IMG/VR virus record: IMGVR_UViG_3300009011_000002
Coordinates: 62,001-126,000 of that record
Source of the DNA: a virus
DNA length: 64,000 nt
Reading direction: 5' to 3' (one strand)
Shown one piece after another: positions 1-62,785 of the stretch. The notes under the pieces were generated by a model. That model had not been told where the DNA came from. It saw only the letters and a list, made by a program, of their open reading frames with translations, and ran no database searches. The first letter of the stretch is position 1; the number at the start of each line of letters is the position of its first letter. The position numbers and the translations under genes are program-made.

Positions 1-674
1 CCTACGGTGACGCTAGGGGCACGATAAACGATTCCCTTCGTCGCACTACCACCTTGGTCCAAAAGACCGTGTAACAGCGCGATGCGGTCTTCCAGAGCAC
101 CGTCGAGGTACTCATGTGGCAAACCGTGTTTAACGTCGAAGTTAATCTCCGCACCGTTCAGACGGCGAATGATCCGTTGGTCACCTTCACCGATCAGCTC
201 GTAACCTTCCGGTAGGTGTTCCCGGACGTAGGTGTCTTGAGCAACGCCGTGGCTGGTGTAGTACAACCGACCTTTCGATTGCCAGGCGGTGTACATCAGA
301 CCCATGATGTACGGATGGATCTTCAGCTTCTTCTTGGGCCCGTCAATGGGTGCTACCAACGGGACTTCGAAACGACGTCTCCCACCCTTCTTGTCCAGTT
401 CCAACGCCAAACGAGCGGTACTGAAGTCACCGGTGATCCCGTCCTTGTTGTCGAACAAGGTCCACAAGTGTTCAGCCCCCACTTGGGTAATACGGCCGTC
501 ACTCATGGTGACGTTGTACAGACGCATGACACCTTGTGGATGGATGCCCATCACACGGCTGGTCTTACCATGACGGTTCCAGATCTCGTCGCCAGTACGG
601 AGTTCGGAGATCTTCTTCCAGCTAACGTTACCGTCTTCACCCACCACAGCCACTTCGTTCTGATCCCACTGCAT
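1..674 (-). other. Intein (5' part) inside terminase P-loop
   Basis: The intein starts at codon 183 of the terminase (672-674). Block A looks like NGEDGNVSWKKISELRTGDE-type sequence (VVGEDGNVSWKKISELRTGD). Block B is SDGRITQVGAEHLWTLFD, with His and Trp as in intein block B. The first residue is Met, not the usual Cys or Ser, so standard class 1 splicing chemistry cannot apply. The block B Trp fits the Trp of the class 3 WCT signature. The block F Cys and the +1 Thr lie beyond the edge. About 224 intein residues are visible; a homing endonuclease domain cannot be judged from this part. Confidence 0.85.
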
Positions 675-26400: not shown

Positions 26401-27890
26401 TCTTCCAGGCTTTGCCCGTTGGCCAACTCGATGTGCTTGAACTGAGTAGCCTTCCGCATGAAGAACTGTTGTTCCGCTACGGTCAGTACCCCTTCCTTCG
26501 CACGCTCTTCCAACGCCAGCGCCACACCGCTTTCGTACGTCGGGAACGGATCCTTCGCCACCGACGTATCGGTAGTGATCTTCTCCTGTTCCAGCAATGC
26601 ATCGTCTACTTCTGCGGTCCAGTCTTCAGCTGCTTCAGAATTATCTCGAGTTCCCTCTTCTCCCGCCCCTTGAACAGATCCTCCGTCAGGTTCTTCGCTA
26701 TTATCGAAAACAGCAAGCATAGGAGCAGTAGTACGAGCAGCTGTGGCATTGTCATCCTTACCAGAAACCCGTCCTTCTTTGGTTTCCCGTTGGGATCCTT
26801 TTGCCGCGCCAGCTCCCTTCGCTCCTGTAGCCACTTGGGTATCCGCCGTGGCTTCTTCTCGGTTCTCATCCTTGGCTTCCTCGACTTCTCCCTCAGAGAG
26901 ACTACCATTTCTGGTAAGGTTCATGAGGGCAAGGTAAACACGCTTCGTGACAGCGAAACGCTTGGGGTGGCTTTCCCGGTGGCTGCCGACGTCTGGAGTT
27001 TTATCCTTGGCCAACTTCTCGAGGAAACGTTTATCGTCCAACTCATTCAGCCAGCCCTTGAGGGTGGCCAGGTTGATGATGAGGGAACGGCTGTTCGACA
27101 CAAAGATCAGATGGAGGGATTGCTCGGCCTTGGGTGTCAGCTTGCTGAACAGGCTGTACTTCCAGTCGCCAAACAGCAAGGCAATCCAGTCCAGCAACCA
27201 ATACGAACTCTCCGCCTTGTTCACCCGCACGGTCTGGTTAGACGGAACAGGCAAACCATTCTTGAAGCTCTTGACATAATGGTCAAAGTCAATCAGCAAC
27301 TCAGACCACGATGGCATGTGAAGTGGTAGGTCGATACGGAAGAACTGTTTACGCTCTTTCGATTTCGCCGCTTCTTCGTTGATGCGGTCCATCAACATCG
27401 AGTACTGGTTGTAATGCCGCTCGAAGTTAACGAACATCGTTGGACGCGGCAACCACATCTTGTTGATCAAGCCGTAGTTGTTGACCACCAACACGTTGTC
27501 TTTGTTGTAGACAGTGTTGATGTCTTTGGTCCAGTTGAAGTTGTAGTGGCTCGCGCGGTACGCCTGGATCGCCTTACGGACATCCATGGCCAACATACGA
27601 CCATTACCGATGACGGGTTCAAACTCCGTCTTAAAGTTGATGAAAACATCACCAGTGAAGTTACTGATGAAAGCTTCCGACGTGGCAGGGCCGTAGTCTT
27701 CCGTGTTCTTTGGGAAGAAGTGGATCAGGCTCGCACGGGGCAGGCTGATCTCCCCGATGCCGATGTAGTTGGGGGTGACCAGCTCTTGCCTTTTGCGTTG
27801 TACGTACCACTTGAAAAACTCGGGATATGTCGCTGCAAGGGCTTCTTCGCCTGTGACAGCTGACAAAGCGGGATTCGCTCCGTTCAGCAT
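23496..27890 (-). CDS. Virion RNA polymerase beta subunit, N-terminal and central part
   Basis: 1464 residues. The C-terminal third follows bacterial beta: ASQAVSAENY (compare MQRQAVPTL), VVMVEDQDTYEDSIAI (compare NGYNFEDSI) and VIGNQMKGTAGYIMEKPIF (compare AGRHGNKGVISKI), then the FNRM...LASNE end. It stops before the beta C-terminal clamp region, which is encoded separately at 43660-44343. Residues about 330-440 form an acidic low-complexity linker. In phiKZ relatives this packaged polymerase transcribes early genes after injection. ATG at 27890 is chosen because GGAGG lies 7 nt upstream; ATG at 27896 is too close. The stop is coupled to the endolysin start. Confidence 0.85.
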   Translation of the reverse strand: MLNGANPALSAVTGEEALAATYPEFFKWYVQRKRQELVTPNYIGIGEISLPRASLIHFFPKNTEDYGPATSEAFISNFTGDVFINFKTEFEPVIGNGRMLAMDVRKAIQAYRASHYNFNWTKDINTVYNKDNVLVVNNYGLINKMWLPRPTMFVNFERHYNQYSMLMDRINEEAAKSKERKQFFRIDLPLHMPSWSELLIDFDHYVKSFKNGLPVPSNQTVRVNKAESSYWLLDWIALLFGDWKYSLFSKLTPKAEQSLHLIFVSNSRSLIINLATLKGWLNELDDKRFLEKLAKDKTPDVGSHRESHPKRFAVTKRVYLALMNLTRNGSLSEGEVEEAKDENREEATADTQVATGAKGAGAAKGSQRETKEGRVSGKDDNATAARTTAPMLAVFDNSEEPDGGSVQGAGEEGTRDNSEAAEDWTAEVDDALLEQEKITTDTSVAKDPFPTYESGVALALEERAKEGVLTVAEQQFFMRKATQFKHIELANGQSLEEFIQVKPEEYKALKADAEIKADLPVVLDESMKRSRAKVLKQGYVDKFLHKDTVMMLLGLQNAGVAINDFKHEVVEGVEGSYDVYTIQVHPVDGDQTTHHIRMPRVGKDGTFTVDGVKSHMQLQRMELPIRKINKFKVALTSYYDRKLMVSRSLKKVDDLGAWLVKQVASRGNRSGSDITYNRGSSLSGKYDSPRVYSILASKFQWINAGGDKGVTFDFRIDKLLAEHPQFSKHTKKDDFLIGVKNDKPVTVDGYGNLYLDGVEFNTVENLLGISTAKAPTEYAVINIGGYLFPMGVVLCYYFGIDKLLQVIKATTRSVPMGNRPKLSEDEYAITFNDEYLIFNRREKLTTLIFGGMPRLNNISNFSRSNLNEKGVWVPLMGDDKVRPKQFLEMKNLFDLFIDPITKGELKKLGYSESFHYLLIDAVKLLETDWTRHEVELEEQRIVGYERFAGHMYREWVKAIRMYRNKGKGRKQKIDFNPEAVTMNIITDTSVNLVEEVNPIHQLKDQEELTFGGVGGRGEISMVKRARVQLDSYKGKISEANKDSGKVGFVTYLTSDPCIEDYRGNIAVKEKPTLTGLASVTGNLAFGMSKDDPKRGMFTSTQASQAVSAENYTPNITRTGYDSMIAHRTSELYSKVARDDGKVTEVTEDSMTVTYTDKTTDVYPLGLKIGEASGEYHRHTRVTDLKVGDKFKAGDVVGWDRQWFDRDVFCPGQVVWKAGRMIRVVMVEDQDTYEDSIAITKELAMESITPFIKKKQFLMGSKQIINWKVKIGDEVDYDSILCEVEDDHLVGGAAENSLMEDVNRLGIKQQRSNHHGKIIHIDVKYNATPEQMSDSVRKFIAHADKDRKRTASIEGSTVKSGSVSNSLNVNKPTLSPEKVLVTVYVESMDYSTTADKYVIGNQMKGTAGYIMEKPIFTLDGRKVDAKVSFKGMFNRMVLSLRDKLASNELSTQFSLKAVKVYRGIK
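26606..26869 (-). CDS. Overprinted ORF: basic single-pass membrane protein candidate
   Basis: An 87-residue ORF inside the RNA polymerase beta gene, same strand, other frame. ATG at 26869 has GAGG 9 nt upstream. The product has a basic N-terminus (RTEKKPRRIPKW, then NGKPKKDG), one strong transmembrane helix (residues about 42-58, PQLLVLLLLCLLFSIIA) and an amphipathic charged C-terminal helix (GREKRELEIILKQL). The frame it overlaps encodes the low-complexity linker of beta (residues about 341-429), where protein constraint is weakest. Nested small membrane proteins in phages can be spanins or lysis regulators, but no family was recognised. It could be chance; the combination of site, Shine-Dalgarno and topology argues otherwise. 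Confidence 0.5.
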   Translation of the reverse strand: MRTEKKPRRIPKWLQERRELARQKDPNGKPKKDGFLVRMTMPQLLVLLLLCLLFSIIAKNLTEDLFKGREKRELEIILKQLKTGPQK

Positions 27891-27892
27891 CC

Positions 27893-29509
27893 TCATTCCT
27901 CCATGCCACTGGTCATGGCTTTCAACATAAACAAGATGGGTTCGTTGACAGGGTCATACAGGAAACGACCACTGCCACTGATGTAGTACTCGCGCTTACC
28001 GAACAACTCACGCACCTGGGCCTTACTGTCTTCAGCGCACACGCTGTTACAGTTCAACTGGTCACCGTCGTGGTCGGAGTCGTAACCGGCTTCACGGGAA
28101 GGGTCCACCGACATGGCGTCGAAGTAGTCCGGGTTAGCTTGCTTGTGGGGATAGCGCATGCACACTTCCTGGACGTTCCATTCGGAGTCCATGACGTTAC
28201 GCTTAGTCGCCCCTACCACGGTCAGCAGGTTAACTTCTGCTGGCACAATGGAACCGATACCAATGATCGGGTAACGCGTTTGCTGAGCAATCTGATCCAT
28301 GATCGTGCTGTGGCACGACAGGTAGAACAGCTCCATGTACGTCATCGGTGTAACCAACCGACGGTCTTTGCCCTCAGGGAGGTCATTGATGTCATGGAGC
28401 ACACAGACGTCAGTGCCGTCGTCATACACCAGCGCCAGGTAATGGCCACTGATCATAATAGGCTTGTGACGCAAGTGGGTGTTGGAGAAGCCATTGAACA
28501 ATTTGGTCAAGCCGGTAGCCGTGGTCCACTTCTCAGCCGTGTTCGGCGAGACTTCCACGTACTCGTATTCAAACGTCTTCGGGTTAACCAAACGCGCGGA
28601 GTTGGAACCTGCGGTAAACACCGTATCCAGGTACTTCGTCAACAACGCGTTGATACACGAGTACGAGAAGTTCAACATCGCCTGGTACAGACCTACGTCG
28701 GTACTGTTCGGCGATACACCCGTCGACTCAAACAGATGCGGGCGGGAAACCTTACGGGCGGTAATAACGTTACGGGTACCGTTCGCTACACCACGGGTCG
28801 ACACACGACGCTGGAACAGACCACCCTTGCCATCCATCAGGCTGAACAGGTACTGGTCGATCTCGTTGTACGAGTTCTGCAGCCCCCACCTTACGTTGTC
28901 GTAAAGTGGATTGTCCCGATCTTCTTGACTCCCGATGGCGACGACTCGCGTGCGGAAGAGAAGCTTTCGATAATACTCGGTGAGTTCAGGCTCAACCGTC
29001 GCCCCGTTGGGCTGAAATTGGATGTCGCGAAGACCAGCTGGAGGAACGAGGACTTTAGCAGCTGACGCGATGGCTTTGAAACGCTCGACAAGTTGGACAC
29101 GTTGTTTCCTTTTGTGTGATTCGGTCATTGCCAGAATCAATTGAGGGAAATGGGACATAAAGAAACTATATCCGGTTTGCCCTTCAATGATGTTGGATTT
29201 TATGAAATCCTTGGCGTCTTTATCCCATACCGCGTATTCCGTTCCCTTGAGAATTCCAAGGTACAGGCCCTTCAGCTGAGTGATGGATTTGAAATACGAA
29301 GGGTTAAAAATTTCCAGCTTGGTATCGATGAAGGCTTCGGTCTCGTCGCGCTCTTTGCTACCGAGTTTACCGAAGATACCAACCGAGTATAACCCTTCAT
29401 CGTTGAGATTCTGGGTCATCCCTTCGAAAGCGTCTGTCGAGGTTACCTCTTTGTAGATACCCGGAATGACCTTTCGAAAGTCCAACAATGTTAGGTTAGT
29501 TGGATTCAT
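27893..29509 (-). CDS. Virion RNA polymerase beta-prime subunit, N-terminal part
   Basis: 538 residues. Near the C-terminus is YDSDHDGDQLNCN (residues about 476-488), the NADFDGD active-site motif with its three Mg-binding Asp kept. It is followed by SGSGRFLYDPVNEPILFMLKAMTSG, matching the region after the motif in cellular beta-prime (NILSPANGEPI...). The protein ends there, so the rest of beta-prime must be a separate polypeptide outside the window, as in phiKZ (gp180 plus gp80). Its stop overlaps the beta gene region, and 23 nt separate its start from the divergent giant tail gene. Confidence 0.87.
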   Translation of the reverse strand: MNPTNLTLLDFRKVIPGIYKEVTSTDAFEGMTQNLNDEGLYSVGIFGKLGSKERDETEAFIDTKLEIFNPSYFKSITQLKGLYLGILKGTEYAVWDKDAKDFIKSNIIEGQTGYSFFMSHFPQLILAMTESHKRKQRVQLVERFKAIASAAKVLVPPAGLRDIQFQPNGATVEPELTEYYRKLLFRTRVVAIGSQEDRDNPLYDNVRWGLQNSYNEIDQYLFSLMDGKGGLFQRRVSTRGVANGTRNVITARKVSRPHLFESTGVSPNSTDVGLYQAMLNFSYSCINALLTKYLDTVFTAGSNSARLVNPKTFEYEYVEVSPNTAEKWTTATGLTKLFNGFSNTHLRHKPIMISGHYLALVYDDGTDVCVLHDINDLPEGKDRRLVTPMTYMELFYLSCHSTIMDQIAQQTRYPIIGIGSIVPAEVNLLTVVGATKRNVMDSEWNVQEVCMRYPHKQANPDYFDAMSVDPSREAGYDSDHDGDQLNCNSVCAEDSKAQVRELFGKREYYISGSGRFLYDPVNEPILFMLKAMTSGMEE

Positions 29510-44799: not shown

Positions 44800-46227
44800 T
44801 TACTTCACCCAGTACGCTTCACGTTCGCCCAAGGCTACCTTGAGCAGTTCCATGGTGGAGACAGTTTTCTTGTCGATCTCCGGGTTGATGAACCAGTAGT
44901 CCACCGTGTTCTCCAGGATGTCATTCCAGTCCAACCCGAGGTCTTTGATCTTGGTGTACAGTTCTTGCGGAGTGATGCGGTACTTCTTGTCCATGCCGAG
45001 CCAGAAGTATTGCATGAACCACATCTGGTAGCAGATGGTCAATGCACGTTCCAGCTTACGGTCTTCGAGGATCTTCTTCCGGATGGTGGTGCGTCCCACC
45101 TTGCAGTCCGGGTAAAGCACGCAGGCGTGACTGATCGCGCTACCTTCCAACCCGAACATATTGTTGGTTTTCATAGCATGATACATCGTCAGGCCTTCTT
45201 GGATCCCTAGTGACTGGGAACCAATAAAGAAGAAATTGCCACCACTACTGCCATTCTTGTTGCGGTATGGAGTAAGGGTGTAATAAATGAGATCAGGGTT
45301 TTCACGTGCATCTGCATCGATTACTACGTCCTTGCCAAATGGATCGGGGTACATCCATTCTTGGCCTTGCTTGAGTGCGGAACCCCGGATGATTTCGAGC
45401 CCAATCGGCGGACGACGCATGAGCGACTTCGGTGCCTTGAGCTTCTTGCCTTGACGGATGAACACCGACTCTTTCTCGAGCGGCTTACCCGTCATGTTGA
45501 TGATGTCGACTACTTGAGCCAACCAGAACTGGAACATCCCACAGGTAGCCCCCATGGTGTCACAGTCTTCGTAGACGATACGGCGCATGTTGCCGATCTT
45601 CATGTCACGGGTGTTCTGCGTACCACCGGCGTCGACGTCTTCGTCCTGGAAGTGTTCGGAGACCTTGATGAATTCCATTTCGGAGATGGAGTCAACCACT
45701 GGCATACACGGGTTGAGGATCTTGAGGTTACCACCCTCGTTGTCCGGGTACGGTGTGGTGATGTACACGTCTTCCTTGTTCTTGATCGACAGCTTGACCT
45801 GCTCACAATAGTTCTTGAAGAAGTTGTGAGTCCAAGTGCCGTCGTAGTCGTCTTTACGACTGAAGTAGAAGAAGCGCTGGTCGAACAGCTTGTCGTAGAA
45901 GTAACCCGGAATGCCGATCTCACGGTCAACGAAGTCAGCCAGGCGCTTCATGTTGAACGTGCCTTCTTGGTCGATGAGGAACACGACCGAGGTATGGATA
46001 CGGAGCAACATCCGCGCCATGTTCAAAACCGTCCACCCAGTCTTCTGAGTGTTGTTACCGCCAATGATGGCGTTGTTGCTGCATGCACCACCGTTCAGGT
46101 AGGTGACCCCATCAGGACCTACAACGTACTCCCCCGTGATCATGTCCGTAACCGGCGAGGTGTTAATCGACGGATTGATCATGTCGGACGATTTAAATTT
46201 CTTCAAGAACTCGTAAGGCGTCGCCAT
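44800..46227 (-). CDS. RecA/UvsX-like ATPase with altered P-loop
   Basis: 475 residues. The RecA-fold core is suggested by a P-loop-like GGNNTQKT (residues 56-63), where the usual G before K is Gln, followed by a helix and VVFLIDQEGTF (81-91), similar to the VxxxDTEg Walker A'/B region of RecA and UvsX. The position next to the beta C-terminal gene recalls phiKZ gp149-gp152, where gp152 is a RecA-like protein. RecA-type proteins form filaments on single-stranded DNA for recombination and replication. Whether the Q-substituted P-loop binds ATP cannot be read from sequence. Confidence 0.65.
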   Translation of the reverse strand: MATPYEFLKKFKSSDMINPSINTSPVTDMITGEYVVGPDGVTYLNGGACSNNAIIGGNNTQKTGWTVLNMARMLLRIHTSVVFLIDQEGTFNMKRLADFVDREIGIPGYFYDKLFDQRFFYFSRKDDYDGTWTHNFFKNYCEQVKLSIKNKEDVYITTPYPDNEGGNLKILNPCMPVVDSISEMEFIKVSEHFQDEDVDAGGTQNTRDMKIGNMRRIVYEDCDTMGATCGMFQFWLAQVVDIINMTGKPLEKESVFIRQGKKLKAPKSLMRRPPIGLEIIRGSALKQGQEWMYPDPFGKDVVIDADARENPDLIYYTLTPYRNKNGSSGGNFFFIGSQSLGIQEGLTMYHAMKTNNMFGLEGSAISHACVLYPDCKVGRTTIRKKILEDRKLERALTICYQMWFMQYFWLGMDKKYRITPQELYTKIKDLGLDWNDILENTVDYWFINPEIDKKTVSTMELLKVALGEREAYWVK

Positions 46228-53772: not shown

Positions 53773-56613
53773 ATGTTAACTGACTTTTTCTCGGTAGGTG
53801 TTAAACAGACTGGGAACTACGTGCACATTACCGGAGTTTCCTACAAGGCACTCGAACGCGATATCAGTAAGTTCTACAGCACCAGTCTACTCAACAAGTA
53901 CCAAATTCGTCGTGAGTCGTGGGACACCATCAAGGTCCACAACTTCTTCTTGGTGGAGCTCTATGAGATCCTCCGTGAACTGTTGCAGCTGCGTACAATG
54001 GCCAGCCGCCGTCGGGATCTGGCAGAGCTCAGACACCTGCTGGAAACCGAAACGTGGATCAAGGATACTGTTAACCCAGTAGGCACTCCTTTTGATTTCA
54101 GTAAGCTGGATCGTTTTCAAACCAAGCTCTTTCCGGAACAACGGATGTTCTTGGAACAGTACCCGTTGTTGGTTAAGAGTTTCCACCTGAAAGGTTTCCT
54201 GCTGGACGCAGTACCCGGCAGTGGTAAAGCGATGCCCCTCGACACCAAGGTTAAAGTCCCCGGTGGGTGGCGAGAGATAGGAGACCTTAAAATAGGCGAC
54301 CTAGTAATAGGACCCAAAGGGAACACCACTACGGTCACTGCCGTCTACCCGCAAGGTGAAACGGATGTGTACCGGTTCATCTTAGAAGATGGTCGTACAG
54401 TGGATTCTCACCCTCTGCATTTGTGGGAAGTAGTAGAGACTGACTTCGAGGGTACTACTGAACCTCGTACTGCGGTGACTACAACGATTGATATCGTTAA
54501 CCACTTCAGTCAGTTCAGTTATCACCTCCCCATGGTCGGTGAAATAGGAGGTATTGACCTCTCCACAACCACTGACTGCCTGGGGGTTGCCCAAACCCTT
54601 CTTCGCTCTGACGTAGATATTGGGAGCTCAGTGTTAGAACTCCCGTACAACGATCGCTTCAACATTACCAAGGCCATGCTGGAAGCATCTGGCATTCAAC
54701 TGGACGGTAAAGCGATTGCCTTCTCCAGTGATGGACACCAAGCCGCAGAGAACTTCCGAGACCTCATGTGGAGTCTGGGTGGTCGTGCGATAGTAGGTAC
54801 CTTTGAAGGTAAATCGGTTTGCTGGTTCTTCCACCGTGAAGTGGTCGCGCTAGTGAACAACCTGATCATCGGTGATCCTGCTTTGACCATCAACCTGGAA
54901 GAACACCAACGCACACTGTTGGGTATCCGGGCAGTACACAAGGTAGACCCCGAGGAAACCGTCTGTATTGCGATTGACAGCGAAGATAAGCTGTTTGTGG
55001 TAGATGACTACGTCGTCACCCATAACACGTTCACGTCGCTCGTATGGAGCCAATTGGTGAGTGATGCACCCACCGTGGTATTGGCCCCGCTGAACGTGGT
55101 AGACGAAGTGTGGGTGAAGGAGTTTGTCAAGCACTTCAAGAAGCCACCAAAGGTCTGGACAACCAAGTCCGGGGTAGCCCTTAAAGAGGGTTATGATTAC
55201 TACATCGTGCACCACGACTACTTGCAACGGGAAGGGTTCAACATCCTCTTGCGGTTCCTCGAGACCTACTGCAAGAACAACAAGGTCAAGCCTAAGCTGA
55301 TCATCGACGAGTCCCACAACTTCAACGAGATCAAAGCCAAGCAGACCCAGCGGCTTATTCAGTTGGCGGATGCAAACGTGTTCTCGGATACGTTGCCAAT
55401 GTCGGGTACGTTGTTCAAGGCCTTGGGGAGCGAGCTGTTCCCGATGCAGTGCCTGATCGACAAACACTTCGACACCATTGCCCGTCAGTTCTTCTTGGCG
55501 AGCTACGGTCGTAACCGACCTGCACTGATGACGTTGCTGTCTCACCGGATCGGTAAGGTGAAGTTTACTATTCCTGAACTGGTCGGGATGGGAGCGGCTC
55601 CTCCATTCGAGATCGTCAAGGTCCAAGTACCAGGCAGTGACAAGTACACGCTCGATGCGATCCGCTTGCAAATGCAGACGTACATCGCCGAACGGGTCAA
55701 GTTTTACAACCACCACATGCCTGCGTTTATCACGTTCTACAATGACGTGATCAGTCGTTACGAGTTCTCCATTCGTACTCACCCAAAGGAACTGGAGGAG
55801 CTGCGTCGCTACAAGACAATCGTTCGCCGCTTCCAGACCCAAGGGTACAACAACTTCACTGATGCACAGGACAGTGTGTTCTGTAAAGAGGTGGAGGTAA
55901 ACATTGAGCGAGACCTCAAAGGTAAAGAACTGGCAGATTTCCGTAACGTGAAGTCAGCAGTGAAGTACCTCGGGTTGAAACTCCGTGGGGAGGCATTGGG
56001 TAACGTACTGGGCAGGGCCCGTATCAACGCGATCAAGGATATGATCGAATATGCGGACCTTCCCAAGTACATCGACAACGTGGAGAAGAAGACGGTTATC
56101 TTTACCTCGTACGTCGAATCCCTTCAATTGACGAATGACCATTTGCGAGCGAAGGGTTACAACCCAGTCATGGTGTACGGGGCTACCAACCACGAACGGG
56201 ACATGCTGGTGGAGCAGTTCAAAACGGATCCTCGGGTAAACCCCCTGGGTGCGACCTACTCCAGCTTGAAGGAAGGCTACCCCCTCCTGATGGCCAACCA
56301 GATCATCTCGTTGGATGCACCGTATCGAGACGGGGAGATCAAGCAGGTACAAGCCCGTGTATGGCGAACCGGCCAGGACACCCAGTGTTTCTTCTGGATG
56401 CTCGATCTGGACACCGGCACAAAGCTGAACATCACCACCCGTAGCTTGGACATCTTGGCATGGAGCCGTGACCAAGTAGACACCCTTCTGGGGCGCTTGG
56501 ACACACCTGTAGCGTTCACAAACGTTACCGGGCAGGAGATGTTAGACCTGAGTGAAGAACCCTTCTCTAAACCGCTCCGATCCAGTAACAGCGTTTTGTC
56601 TCTCTTTAACTAG
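53773..56613 (+). CDS. Superfamily 2 (SNF2/UvsW-like) helicase interrupted by an intein
   Basis: 946 codons; 680 residues after removal of the intein. Motif I is AVPGSGK (residues about 146-152) completed by Thr419 after the intein. Motif II is LIIDESHNF (DExH). Later helicase motifs include MSGTLFKAL, IFTSYVESLQL and QVQARVWRTGQ (motif VI, ARxxRxGQ type), as in SNF2 ATPases. It should remodel DNA or DNA-protein complexes using ATP. ATG at 53773 (AGGA 7 nt upstream) is preferred to the longer in-frame start. The exteins are inactive until protein splicing restores GSGKT. It opens a plus-strand run that continues into fibre-like genes. Confidence 0.88.
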   Translation: MLTDFFSVGVKQTGNYVHITGVSYKALERDISKFYSTSLLNKYQIRRESWDTIKVHNFFLVELYEILRELLQLRTMASRRRDLAELRHLLETETWIKDTVNPVGTPFDFSKLDRFQTKLFPEQRMFLEQYPLLVKSFHLKGFLLDAVPGSGKAMPLDTKVKVPGGWREIGDLKIGDLVIGPKGNTTTVTAVYPQGETDVYRFILEDGRTVDSHPLHLWEVVETDFEGTTEPRTAVTTTIDIVNHFSQFSYHLPMVGEIGGIDLSTTTDCLGVAQTLLRSDVDIGSSVLELPYNDRFNITKAMLEASGIQLDGKAIAFSSDGHQAAENFRDLMWSLGGRAIVGTFEGKSVCWFFHREVVALVNNLIIGDPALTINLEEHQRTLLGIRAVHKVDPEETVCIAIDSEDKLFVVDDYVVTHNTFTSLVWSQLVSDAPTVVLAPLNVVDEVWVKEFVKHFKKPPKVWTTKSGVALKEGYDYYIVHHDYLQREGFNILLRFLETYCKNNKVKPKLIIDESHNFNEIKAKQTQRLIQLADANVFSDTLPMSGTLFKALGSELFPMQCLIDKHFDTIARQFFLASYGRNRPALMTLLSHRIGKVKFTIPELVGMGAAPPFEIVKVQVPGSDKYTLDAIRLQMQTYIAERVKFYNHHMPAFITFYNDVISRYEFSIRTHPKELEELRRYKTIVRRFQTQGYNNFTDAQDSVFCKEVEVNIERDLKGKELADFRNVKSAVKYLGLKLRGEALGNVLGRARINAIKDMIEYADLPKYIDNVEKKTVIFTSYVESLQLTNDHLRAKGYNPVMVYGATNHERDMLVEQFKTDPRVNPLGATYSSLKEGYPLLMANQIISLDAPYRDGEIKQVQARVWRTGQDTQCFFWMLDLDTGTKLNITTRSLDILAWSRDQVDTLLGRLDTPVAFTNVTGQEMLDLSEEPFSKPLRSSNSVLSLFN
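54229..55026 (+). other. Class 3-type intein in helicase P-loop
   Basis: 266 residues between GSGK and TFTS. The first residue is Ala instead of Cys/Ser. Block A is MPLDTKVKVPGGWREIGDLK. Block B is DSHPLHLWEV, with Trp. Block F begins ETVCIAIDSEDKLFV, with Cys at the F:4 position. The end is VVTHN, followed by extein Thr. Trp, Cys and Thr together form the WCT signature of class 3 inteins, in which the F-block Cys replaces the N-terminal nucleophile. The middle has an endonuclease-remnant look (SSDGHQAAENFRDLMWSLGG) but no clear LAGLIDADG motif, so mobility may be lost. Confidence 0.88.
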
Positions 56614-61616: not shown

Positions 61617-61808
61617 TTACAAATCGAGTGCCTCTTCCATCGCCTCGACCATTTCCAAGAAGGTTGCGTCGTCCGCCACCTGTATCGTGTTAACCGCCGC
61701 GGTCCAGACATTAGAGACAGAATCGAAATAGATGTTGATGTCTTTACAGCAGGCGGACGCGCGCTCTCCGATAGCGAGCATCCGATCTTCCAAAAGTTTA
61801 TTGCTCAT
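61617..61808 (-). CDS. Small acidic protein, paralogue of 60818-61042 (63 aa)
   Basis: Acidic, two adjacent Cys (SACCKDINIYF). See the 60818 entry for shared pattern. Start overlaps the end of 61798-62034. GGAA lies 5-6 nt before ATG. Confidence 0.62.
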   Translation of the reverse strand: MSNKLLEDRMLAIGERASACCKDINIYFDSVSNVWTAAVNTIQVADDATFLEMVEAMEEALDL

Positions 61809-62034
61809 TGCTGTTCCTTACGGCTTGTGGGATGAGTTGAAAGAAAAGACTCCTCAGGCGATCAATCTCGCCATAGATGGAGTCCAAGAAAATGATGTGG
61901 GCACTGCCTTCCAGTTTCAAGTTTTGGATTACCTGATACCATCGCGAGATCTCAAACGGGATATCTGAAATGAGATCTCTGCCTTGGGATTTACGGCGAA
62001 TACGGCATTCCGAAAGATAGACTACCTGGCCCAT
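61798..62034 (-). CDS. Small unknown protein (78 aa)
   Basis: Soluble, mixed charge, ends RLRSLFFQLIPQAVRNSNEQ. GAGGA lies about 11 nt upstream of ATG. It overlaps both neighbours (10-13 nt), typical of the tight packing here. No family recognised. Confidence 0.58.
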   Translation of the reverse strand: MGQVVYLSECRIRRKSQGRDLISDIPFEISRWYQVIQNLKLEGSAHIIFLDSIYGEIDRLRSLFFQLIPQAVRNSNEQ

Positions 62035-62261
62035 GGTGAGACATTCCTCGAAAGGCAGTTGGGATACTTCTGGTAGTAAGCCTCTGCCAAGGCGTCAGCG
62101 TGCTGCTTGACCTGCATTGATGCCTGTTGCAAATCAGCAGCTTGGTGTTCATCAGTGGTGCACGCGCTGAGAGCAAGAAGACCCACTGCCCGGTCTTGAG
62201 TCTGCTGAACGATATGAAGCTGTTGCATGCGAGCGCGCACTTCGGTTACGTTATTAGTCAC
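62022..62261 (-). CDS. Small unknown protein, GTG start (79 aa)
   Basis: Gln/Ala-rich helical protein. GTG at 62261 has a strong AAGGAG 7 nt upstream. It contains AVGLLALSAC, a lipobox-like stretch, but the hydrophobic run is short and starts at residue 25, so lipoprotein export is doubtful. Confidence 0.58.
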   Translation of the reverse strand: MTNNVTEVRARMQQLHIVQQTQDRAVGLLALSACTTDEHQAADLQQASMQVKQHADALAEAYYQKYPNCLSRNVSPWAR

Positions 62262-62294
62262 TTACTGACTCCTTGTAAATGAAAGAGAGGTGGG

Positions 62295-62474
62295 CTAATT
62301 GTTTTGCCCGTAATAAACCGCATAGACAAGATACGACAGTATTAAACCAACGATGCTTGCCAATGCGTAAGTTGTAAATCCATTAACGAAATCACTGTAC
62401 TCCTTGTGGGCCTTTCTGCGGTGTTCTCGAATCTCTTCGATACGCCGCTTCCGTTCCTCCGCGGAGTCTTGCAT
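62295..62474 (-). CDS. Small C-terminally anchored membrane protein (59 aa)
   Basis: A charged helical N-terminus (SAEERKRRIEEIREHRRK) is followed by one transmembrane helix at about residues 34-54 (TYALASIVGLILSYLVYAV). ATG at 62474 overlaps the stop of the upstream gene (ATGA). Topology predicts N-in, with the charged coil in the cytoplasm. No family recognised. Confidence 0.65.
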   Translation of the reverse strand: MQDSAEERKRRIEEIREHRRKAHKEYSDFVNGFTTYALASIVGLILSYLVYAVYYGQNN

Positions 62475-62785
62475 CAAACCACCCTGCACCCAATGTGGGC
62501 TTTCAATTCCTCGTAGCTTTCCCACCCCCAAGGGGCGTCTTCAGGCTTACGAGGCGTGTAGTTAGGATCGGTCAGGAAGTTAAAGTAGCTACGACTACCC
62601 GACCGGGTTAAGAAGAAACGATCCAGCTTGTGGTCATCGCTCACAGTGATCACGTAGACGCGACGCGAAAACTCAGAGTCATTAACCAACCCGAAGACCA
62701 CCGAACCACCCAACTTCTGGTTGTCCTTGATCTCAAGCATGTCCACCAGGATCGGTTTCTTTTGGAGTTCTACCGGTGGGTACAT
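62474..62785 (-). CDS. Unknown protein (103 aa)
   Basis: Soluble beta-rich protein (KLGGSVVFGLVNDS, RRVYVITVSDD) with a Trp-rich C-terminus (APWGWESYEE). Overlaps the upstream gene by 1 nt and the downstream by ATGA. No family recognised. Confidence 0.6.
   Translation of the reverse strand: MYPPVELQKKPILVDMLEIKDNQKLGGSVVFGLVNDSEFSRRVYVITVSDDHKLDRFFLTRSGSRSYFNFLTDPNYTPRKPEDAPWGWESYEELKAHIGCRVV

Follow-up and report, generated by a model that had tools for sequence, protein, structure and literature searches.

Sequence comparison and modeling point to an EL-like jumbo-phage SNF2 helicase with a Walker A class 3 intein that is probably immobile yet able to splice

We analyzed a window of 64,000 nucleotides, positions 62,001 to 126,000 of the virus record IMGVR_UViG_3300009011_000002, whose full length is 226,773 bases. 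An open reading frame on the plus strand of this window (53773-56610), with an ATG start and AAGGA upstream, encodes a helicase precursor of 946 amino acids (aa). Its N-extein (53773-54228) ends in ...DAVPGSGK, the Walker A motif up to its Lys, and is followed by an intein of 266 aa (54229-55026; precursor residues 153-418), which was recognized by alignment and fold. The C-extein (55027-56610) starts with TFTSLVWSQ, in which the +1 Thr is the Walker A Thr, and carries the SNF2/Helicase_C domains; the joined exteins amount to 680 aa. The positions and lengths proposed in the initial annotation of this DNA (54229-55026; 946 and 680 residues) were exact.

The host protein is an SNF2-family helicase with SNF2 and Helicase_C domains. 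In Pfam scans of its flanks, Helicase_C (PF00271) scored above the cutoff and SNF2 (PF00176) just below it, and an intein-less orthologue matched phrog_62 (DNA helicase) as well as snf2/rad54 structures. The nearest named relatives are those of Pseudomonas phage EL and its kin (56% identity). A comparative study suggested that jumbo-phage SNF2 helicases either play a RapA-like part alongside the RNA polymerase of the phage or act in recombination (PMC7824862), and the orthologue of Pseudomonas phage OBP is annotated as virion associated; the biological role of the extein studied here is one that we can only infer. Elsewhere in the window, a UvsX-like recombinase was recognized on the minus strand (44803-46227) by PHROGs (phrog_97, E value 1.5e-29).

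The insertion point lies between the Lys and the Thr of Walker A, GSGK/T (the slash marks the site), with the flanks ...PGSGK and TFTSLVWSQ.... The orthologues of Erwinia phage Joad, Klebsiella phage Miami, Vibrio phage pTD1, and Pseudomonas phage OBP lack an intein and are continuous across the site. Since these proteins read GSGKT unbroken, the two borders of the intein can be placed exactly and are no chance result, in agreement with the initial placement of the intein exactly between GSGK and T. Moreover, K152 and T419 of the precursor are invariant among 29 aligned orthologues.

Class 3 inteins are defined by the lack of a nucleophile at position 1 together with a Trp at B:12, a Cys at F:4, and a Thr at G:5, the WCT set (PMC3196547; PMC5050341). 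These residues are Trp67, Cys124, and Thr143 in MchDnaB1 (PMC7664689) and Trp67, Cys118, and Thr137 in MsmDnaBi1, where the Thr directly precedes His138-Asn139 (PMC6195587). In the SNF2 helicase intein, the N-terminal HINT half (residues 1 to 100; 54229-54528) contains Ala1 (codon 54229-54231), His61 (B:7), His64 (B:10; 54418-54420), and Trp66 (B:12; 54424-54426). The C-terminal HINT part (residues 229 to 266; 54913-55026) contains Cys246 (F:4; 54964-54966), Thr264 (G:5; 55018-55020), and the final His265 and Asn266, whose codons run to 55026, directly before the +1 Thr. Position 1 is thus neither Cys, Ser, nor Thr, and Ala1 is invariant in all 14 EL-like orthologues. The best PDB matches of the intein profile were 6riz, a WCT-engineered gp41-1 (E value 4e-20), 6bs8 (MsmDnaBi1; 6e-16), and 6rix (MchDnaB1; 5e-15), with 6riz outscoring the native gp41-1 structure 6qaz (2e-15). 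Trp66 aligned with the Trp of 6riz, 6bs8, and 6rix, which places it at B:12, and Cys246 fell on the Cys that was engineered into 6riz at F:4 and on the one in block F of 6bs8. The alignment that the initial annotation had proposed as a check of its class 3 reading, with an Ala start, a block B Trp, and a block F Cys, therefore places both residues inside their blocks. However, the same annotation took the +1 Thr as the T of WCT. By definition, this T is G:5, here Thr264 before the penultimate His; the signature is still complete, as both Thr264 and the +1 Thr are present. The +1 residue (G:8) itself varies: Aeromonas phage CF8 has Ser there, as do 15 of 167 distinct relatives, all 167 of which keep the THN that closes the VVTHN of our intein. 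Among 37 aligned relatives, the sole invariant positions are H64, W66, C246, I247, T264, H265, and N266, that is, the class 3 active site and one neighbor (I247).

Scanned by itself, the intein had no Pfam or NCBIfam match above the cutoff, and few of its relatives were matched by Pfam; alignment and fold were therefore required. The Ala at the start is class 2-like and could also belong to an intein of class 1 or 2 whose first residue was altered, but all known class 2 inteins are those of KlbA orthologues with Cys+1 (PMC4031507), the class 1 nucleophile (Cys, Ser, or Thr at position 1) is missing, and each residue of the WCT set (Trp B:12, Cys F:4, Thr G:5) is present and invariant. We consider such an assignment extremely improbable and treat the intein as class 3. 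Position 7 of block B is His (HxxH; 54409-54411) and is invariant in the EL-like SNF2 inteins; it is Asp in MsmDnaBi1 and Thr in class 1, a difference that counts against the reading favored here.

An AlphaFold2 (AF2) model of the intein, computed from 37 sequences, had a pLDDT of 94.8 and a pTM of 0.91. The model predicts a HINT fold, with HINT strands at both ends of the chain, around a unit in LAGLIDADG order at residues 117 to 228 (54577-54912). We assign this unit to the remnant of a LAGLIDADG homing endonuclease. It comprises one repeat-like alpha-beta-beta-alpha-beta-beta-alpha unit, modeled as a helix (140-154), two strands, a second helix (170-182), two further strands, and a third helix (205-213). 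In Foldseek searches, PI-SceI and TliVMA matched the intein over its full length; the class 3 mini-inteins, which were among the closest mini-inteins, matched its HINT part (TM score 0.83 by target for 6bs8). The model of the whole precursor was less confident (mean pLDDT 76.8), and two of its low-confidence stretches lay exactly at the splice junctions (146-153 and 404-416). This might fit an unformed P-loop, a pattern that we consider too weak to use.

The structurally characterized MsmDnaBi1 (6bs8) and MchDnaB1 (6rix and 6riy) have the class 3 residues, the Walker A insertion, and the HINT fold in common with the SNF2 intein. In contrast, both reside in DnaB and are mini-inteins without an endonuclease fold, and MsmDnaBi1 further differs in its Asp at B:7 and its internal redox trap. 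Compared by description, the Snf2 intein of Deinococcus radiodurans is also a class 3 intein in an SNF2-family protein, although of a bacterial host; it is reported to splice, with detection of the block F intermediate (Brace et al. 2010, as cited in PMC3196547). The bacterial SNF2 class 3 inteins that we found share the GK/T site but lie on another branch of the tree than the EL-like ones. Compared by site, the mycobacteriophage TerL1-a inteins (PMC5050341) likewise split a phage ATPase at the Walker A Lys/Thr, in a terminase instead of a helicase.

The closest known system is gp166 (ORF166) of Pseudomonas phage EL (NC_007623, AJ697969), an orthologous SNF2 helicase with the same GSGK/T site, the class 3 residues, and the endonuclease loss. 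Its intein has 262 aa, compared to 266 aa here, and the two are 42% identical (56% over the whole precursor). The GenBank records of EL annotate no intein, and a literature search found no paper describing one in this phage; it may have been cataloged earlier (e.g., in InBase). Shewanella phage FishSpeaker and Aeromonas phage CF8 also carry class 3 residues at the same P-loop site of the orthologous helicase. Their inteins belong to separate lineages and are longer (355 and 358 aa), and they are probably still mobile, as their LLGDG and DTDG motifs are intact.

We judged the loss of endonuclease motifs by alignment with the inteins of FishSpeaker, CF8, and EL ORF39, which carry LLGDG and DTDG. 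In the SNF2 intein, the block C motif is missing and the block E acid is replaced (LLDTDG to MLEASG), so that the two LAGLIDADG motifs with catalytic acids that mark a mobile intein are not found. The same holds for all 14 EL-like SNF2 inteins, in which block C is absent and the block E acid is lost (DTDG to EASG in the window's own). The catalytic acids are also lost from the inteins of the large terminase (TerL) and of a UvsW-like helicase described below. From the known role of the LAGLIDADG acids, cleavage would be abolished in the EL-like SNF2, TerL, and UvsW inteins, which should therefore not home.

A profile search of the virus's own genome revealed three class 3 inteins, in the SNF2 helicase, TerL, and the UvsW-like helicase, each with the Trp, the Cys, and THN. 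The TerL intein (310 aa; record G000, 61745-62674) starts with Met and interrupts RQQGK/T; it crosses the left edge of the window, so that only its N-terminal part, at window positions 1-674 on the minus strand, lies inside. The UvsW intein (254 aa, at GQGK/T) lies outside the window (G000 27875-28636; L002 1501-2262, minus strand). Both the SNF2 and the TerL intein occur in 14 of 14 EL-like genomes (our own and 13 others). The UvsW intein was found in 10 of the 13 judgeable records, our own included, and is absent from G003, G008, and G009; G014, a 78-kb fragment, was left out of this count. Phage EL has a fourth intein, in ORF39, which is of class 3, retains intact LAGLIDADG motifs, and is inserted at GERNAAGK/S (L279 / L296). 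This intein groups with the SNF2 intein of FishSpeaker (99/95), a placement suggestive of transfer from one kind of ATPase gene to another.

Outside the EL-like clade, each of 18 more distant jumbo-phage records carried none to two inteins. Among 80 SNF2 relatives, 21 had a class 3 intein, always at the same Lys/Thr, and in other jumbo phages this P-loop site has been entered by other class 3 lineages. We further collected 167 distinct relatives of the intein from viral and genome contigs; since these are the sequences most like the SNF2 intein, they do not constitute a survey of class 3. An insertion after GK was seen in 155 of them and one before Thr or Ser in all 167, and their hosts, with names judged from context, are ATPases of many kinds, including DnaB, TerL, and SNF2. 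About 70% of inteins are reported in ATP-binding proteins, and K/T has been called the classic P-loop insertion (PMC5050341). We considered the P-loop preference as a new observation and rejected this, as it was already known from that study. Several intein-bearing jumbo-phage proteins of different kinds are labeled "DarB-like antirestriction" (NC_007623 gp166, NC_042136, NC_042081, and other RefSeq records), a label that may follow the intein and not the host protein.

In a tree of class 3-type inteins only, the EL-like SNF2 inteins formed one clade (100/100), as did the TerL inteins, RisingSun included (100/100). Nine of the 10 UvsW inteins fell into one clade (100/99), and that of EL itself was placed elsewhere. 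The SNF2 intein and extein trees had 9 of 11 splits in common, and the AU test rejected neither (P = 0.33 and 0.12). Because these clades exist and the intein and extein trees do not conflict, the EL-like inteins, except the UvsW intein of EL, were probably resident in an ancestor and passed down.

We estimated dN/dS across six close genomes, with ratios that are rough because dS is about 1, and obtained 0.058 for the N-extein, 0.068 for the C-extein, 0.058 for both HINT parts, and 0.142 for the endonuclease remnant. Constraint on the splicing domain is thus close to that on the helicase itself, an argument that splicing takes place and is important; the ratio for the remnant, too, is well below neutral expectation. 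The corresponding values for the remnants of the TerL and UvsW inteins were 0.150 and 0.043. In the UvsW intein, conservation of the inactivated endonuclease part equals that of the extein and exceeds that of the SNF2 and TerL remnants. A decaying intein that no longer splices, in a helicase gene that is dead or works in pieces, would also have a dead endonuclease, and inactive class 3 inteins do exist, as in Arsp-FB24 Arth_1007 (PMC3196547). Yet Cys F:4 and His B:10, which the SNF2 intein keeps, were both missing from the Arthrobacter pseudogene; all known catalytic residues are intact in 14 of 14 orthologues, and constraint on the splicing blocks equals that on the exteins. Decay is therefore a very improbable account.

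Considering the position, the signature, the predicted fold, the loss of endonuclease motifs, a descent consistent with vertical inheritance, and the purifying selection, we conclude that the Walker A motif of this EL-like SNF2 helicase very probably houses a splicing-competent but immobile class 3 intein that is vertically inherited. Studied class 3 inteins provide the analogy for its chemistry and for an efficient, constitutive reaction starting from a precursor devoid of ATPase activity. Following the published class 3 pathway (PMC4031507), Cys246 (F:4) would attack the peptide bond that links the P-loop Lys to Ala1 and so form a branched thioester at block F. The N-extein would then be transferred to the +1 Thr, and cyclization of Asn266, aided by His265, would free the intein. 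An acyl shift would restore GSGKT and yield the active 680-aa helicase. As to its history, the intein would have arrived as a mobile element with a LAGLIDADG endonuclease and lost its cleavage capacity before the EL-like phages diverged; since then, it would have been inherited vertically. Its retention would be explained by the P-loop, which stays functional only if the intein is spliced out or deleted precisely.

The initial annotation raised the possibility that splicing acts as a switch on activity. The unspliced helicase is likely to lack ATPase activity, by analogy with the P-loop intein of Pyrococcus horikoshii RadA (PMC6195587). Nothing that we found points to regulated splicing, and there is no conserved redox cysteine pair. 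MsmDnaBi1 of Mycobacterium smegmatis is conditional through an intramolecular redox trap within the intein, which needs a second Cys (PMC6195587). In the 14 EL-like SNF2 inteins, we found no conserved partner Cys for the catalytic residue: only Cys246 is present in 14 of 14, and a Cys near position 156 occurs in 10 of them and is absent from the window's own. A broader version of this idea, in which the SNF2 helicase, TerL, and the UvsW-like helicase splice slowly or conditionally and the inteins are kept to time ATPase activity in infection, would fit the retention of three immobile class 3 inteins in three P-loops in 14 of 14, 14 of 14, and 10 of 13 EL-like genomes. It would also fit the constraint on remnants that lack catalytic acids (dN/dS of 0.14 for SNF2, 0.15 for TerL, and 0.04 for UvsW), which implies that they do something besides DNA cutting. 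Furthermore, the P-loop inteins of RadA and MsmDnaBi1 have been reported to splice conditionally (PMC5790916; PMC6195587). However, the remnant may serve folding or splicing only, the second Cys is not conserved, and retention is also to be expected if exact deletion is rare. Moreover, the UvsW intein is absent from three EL-like genomes, and related jumbo phages manage without the SNF2 intein. It is therefore unlikely, in our estimate, that the three ATPases are held off by P-loop inteins that, together with their dead but constrained endonuclease domains, have become domesticated post-translational timers by which the enzymes are set free after translation.

The SNF2 helicase intein is a further class 3 intein at the classic site, orthologous to that of EL gp166, an intein-bearing helicase on which its own records are silent. 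More interesting than any single intein is the presence in one phage clade of three P-loop inteins that are immobile, vertically kept, and still constrained, and the most informative part is the endonuclease remnant, which is under selection despite its lost catalytic acids. With up to three such inteins per genome, a member that can be cultivated (phage EL), relatives that lack the intein, and sister phages whose endonuclease at this site is intact, the EL-like family offers a clean test bed for the long-standing question of whether non-homing inteins are retained for their usefulness or only owing to the rarity of exact deletion.
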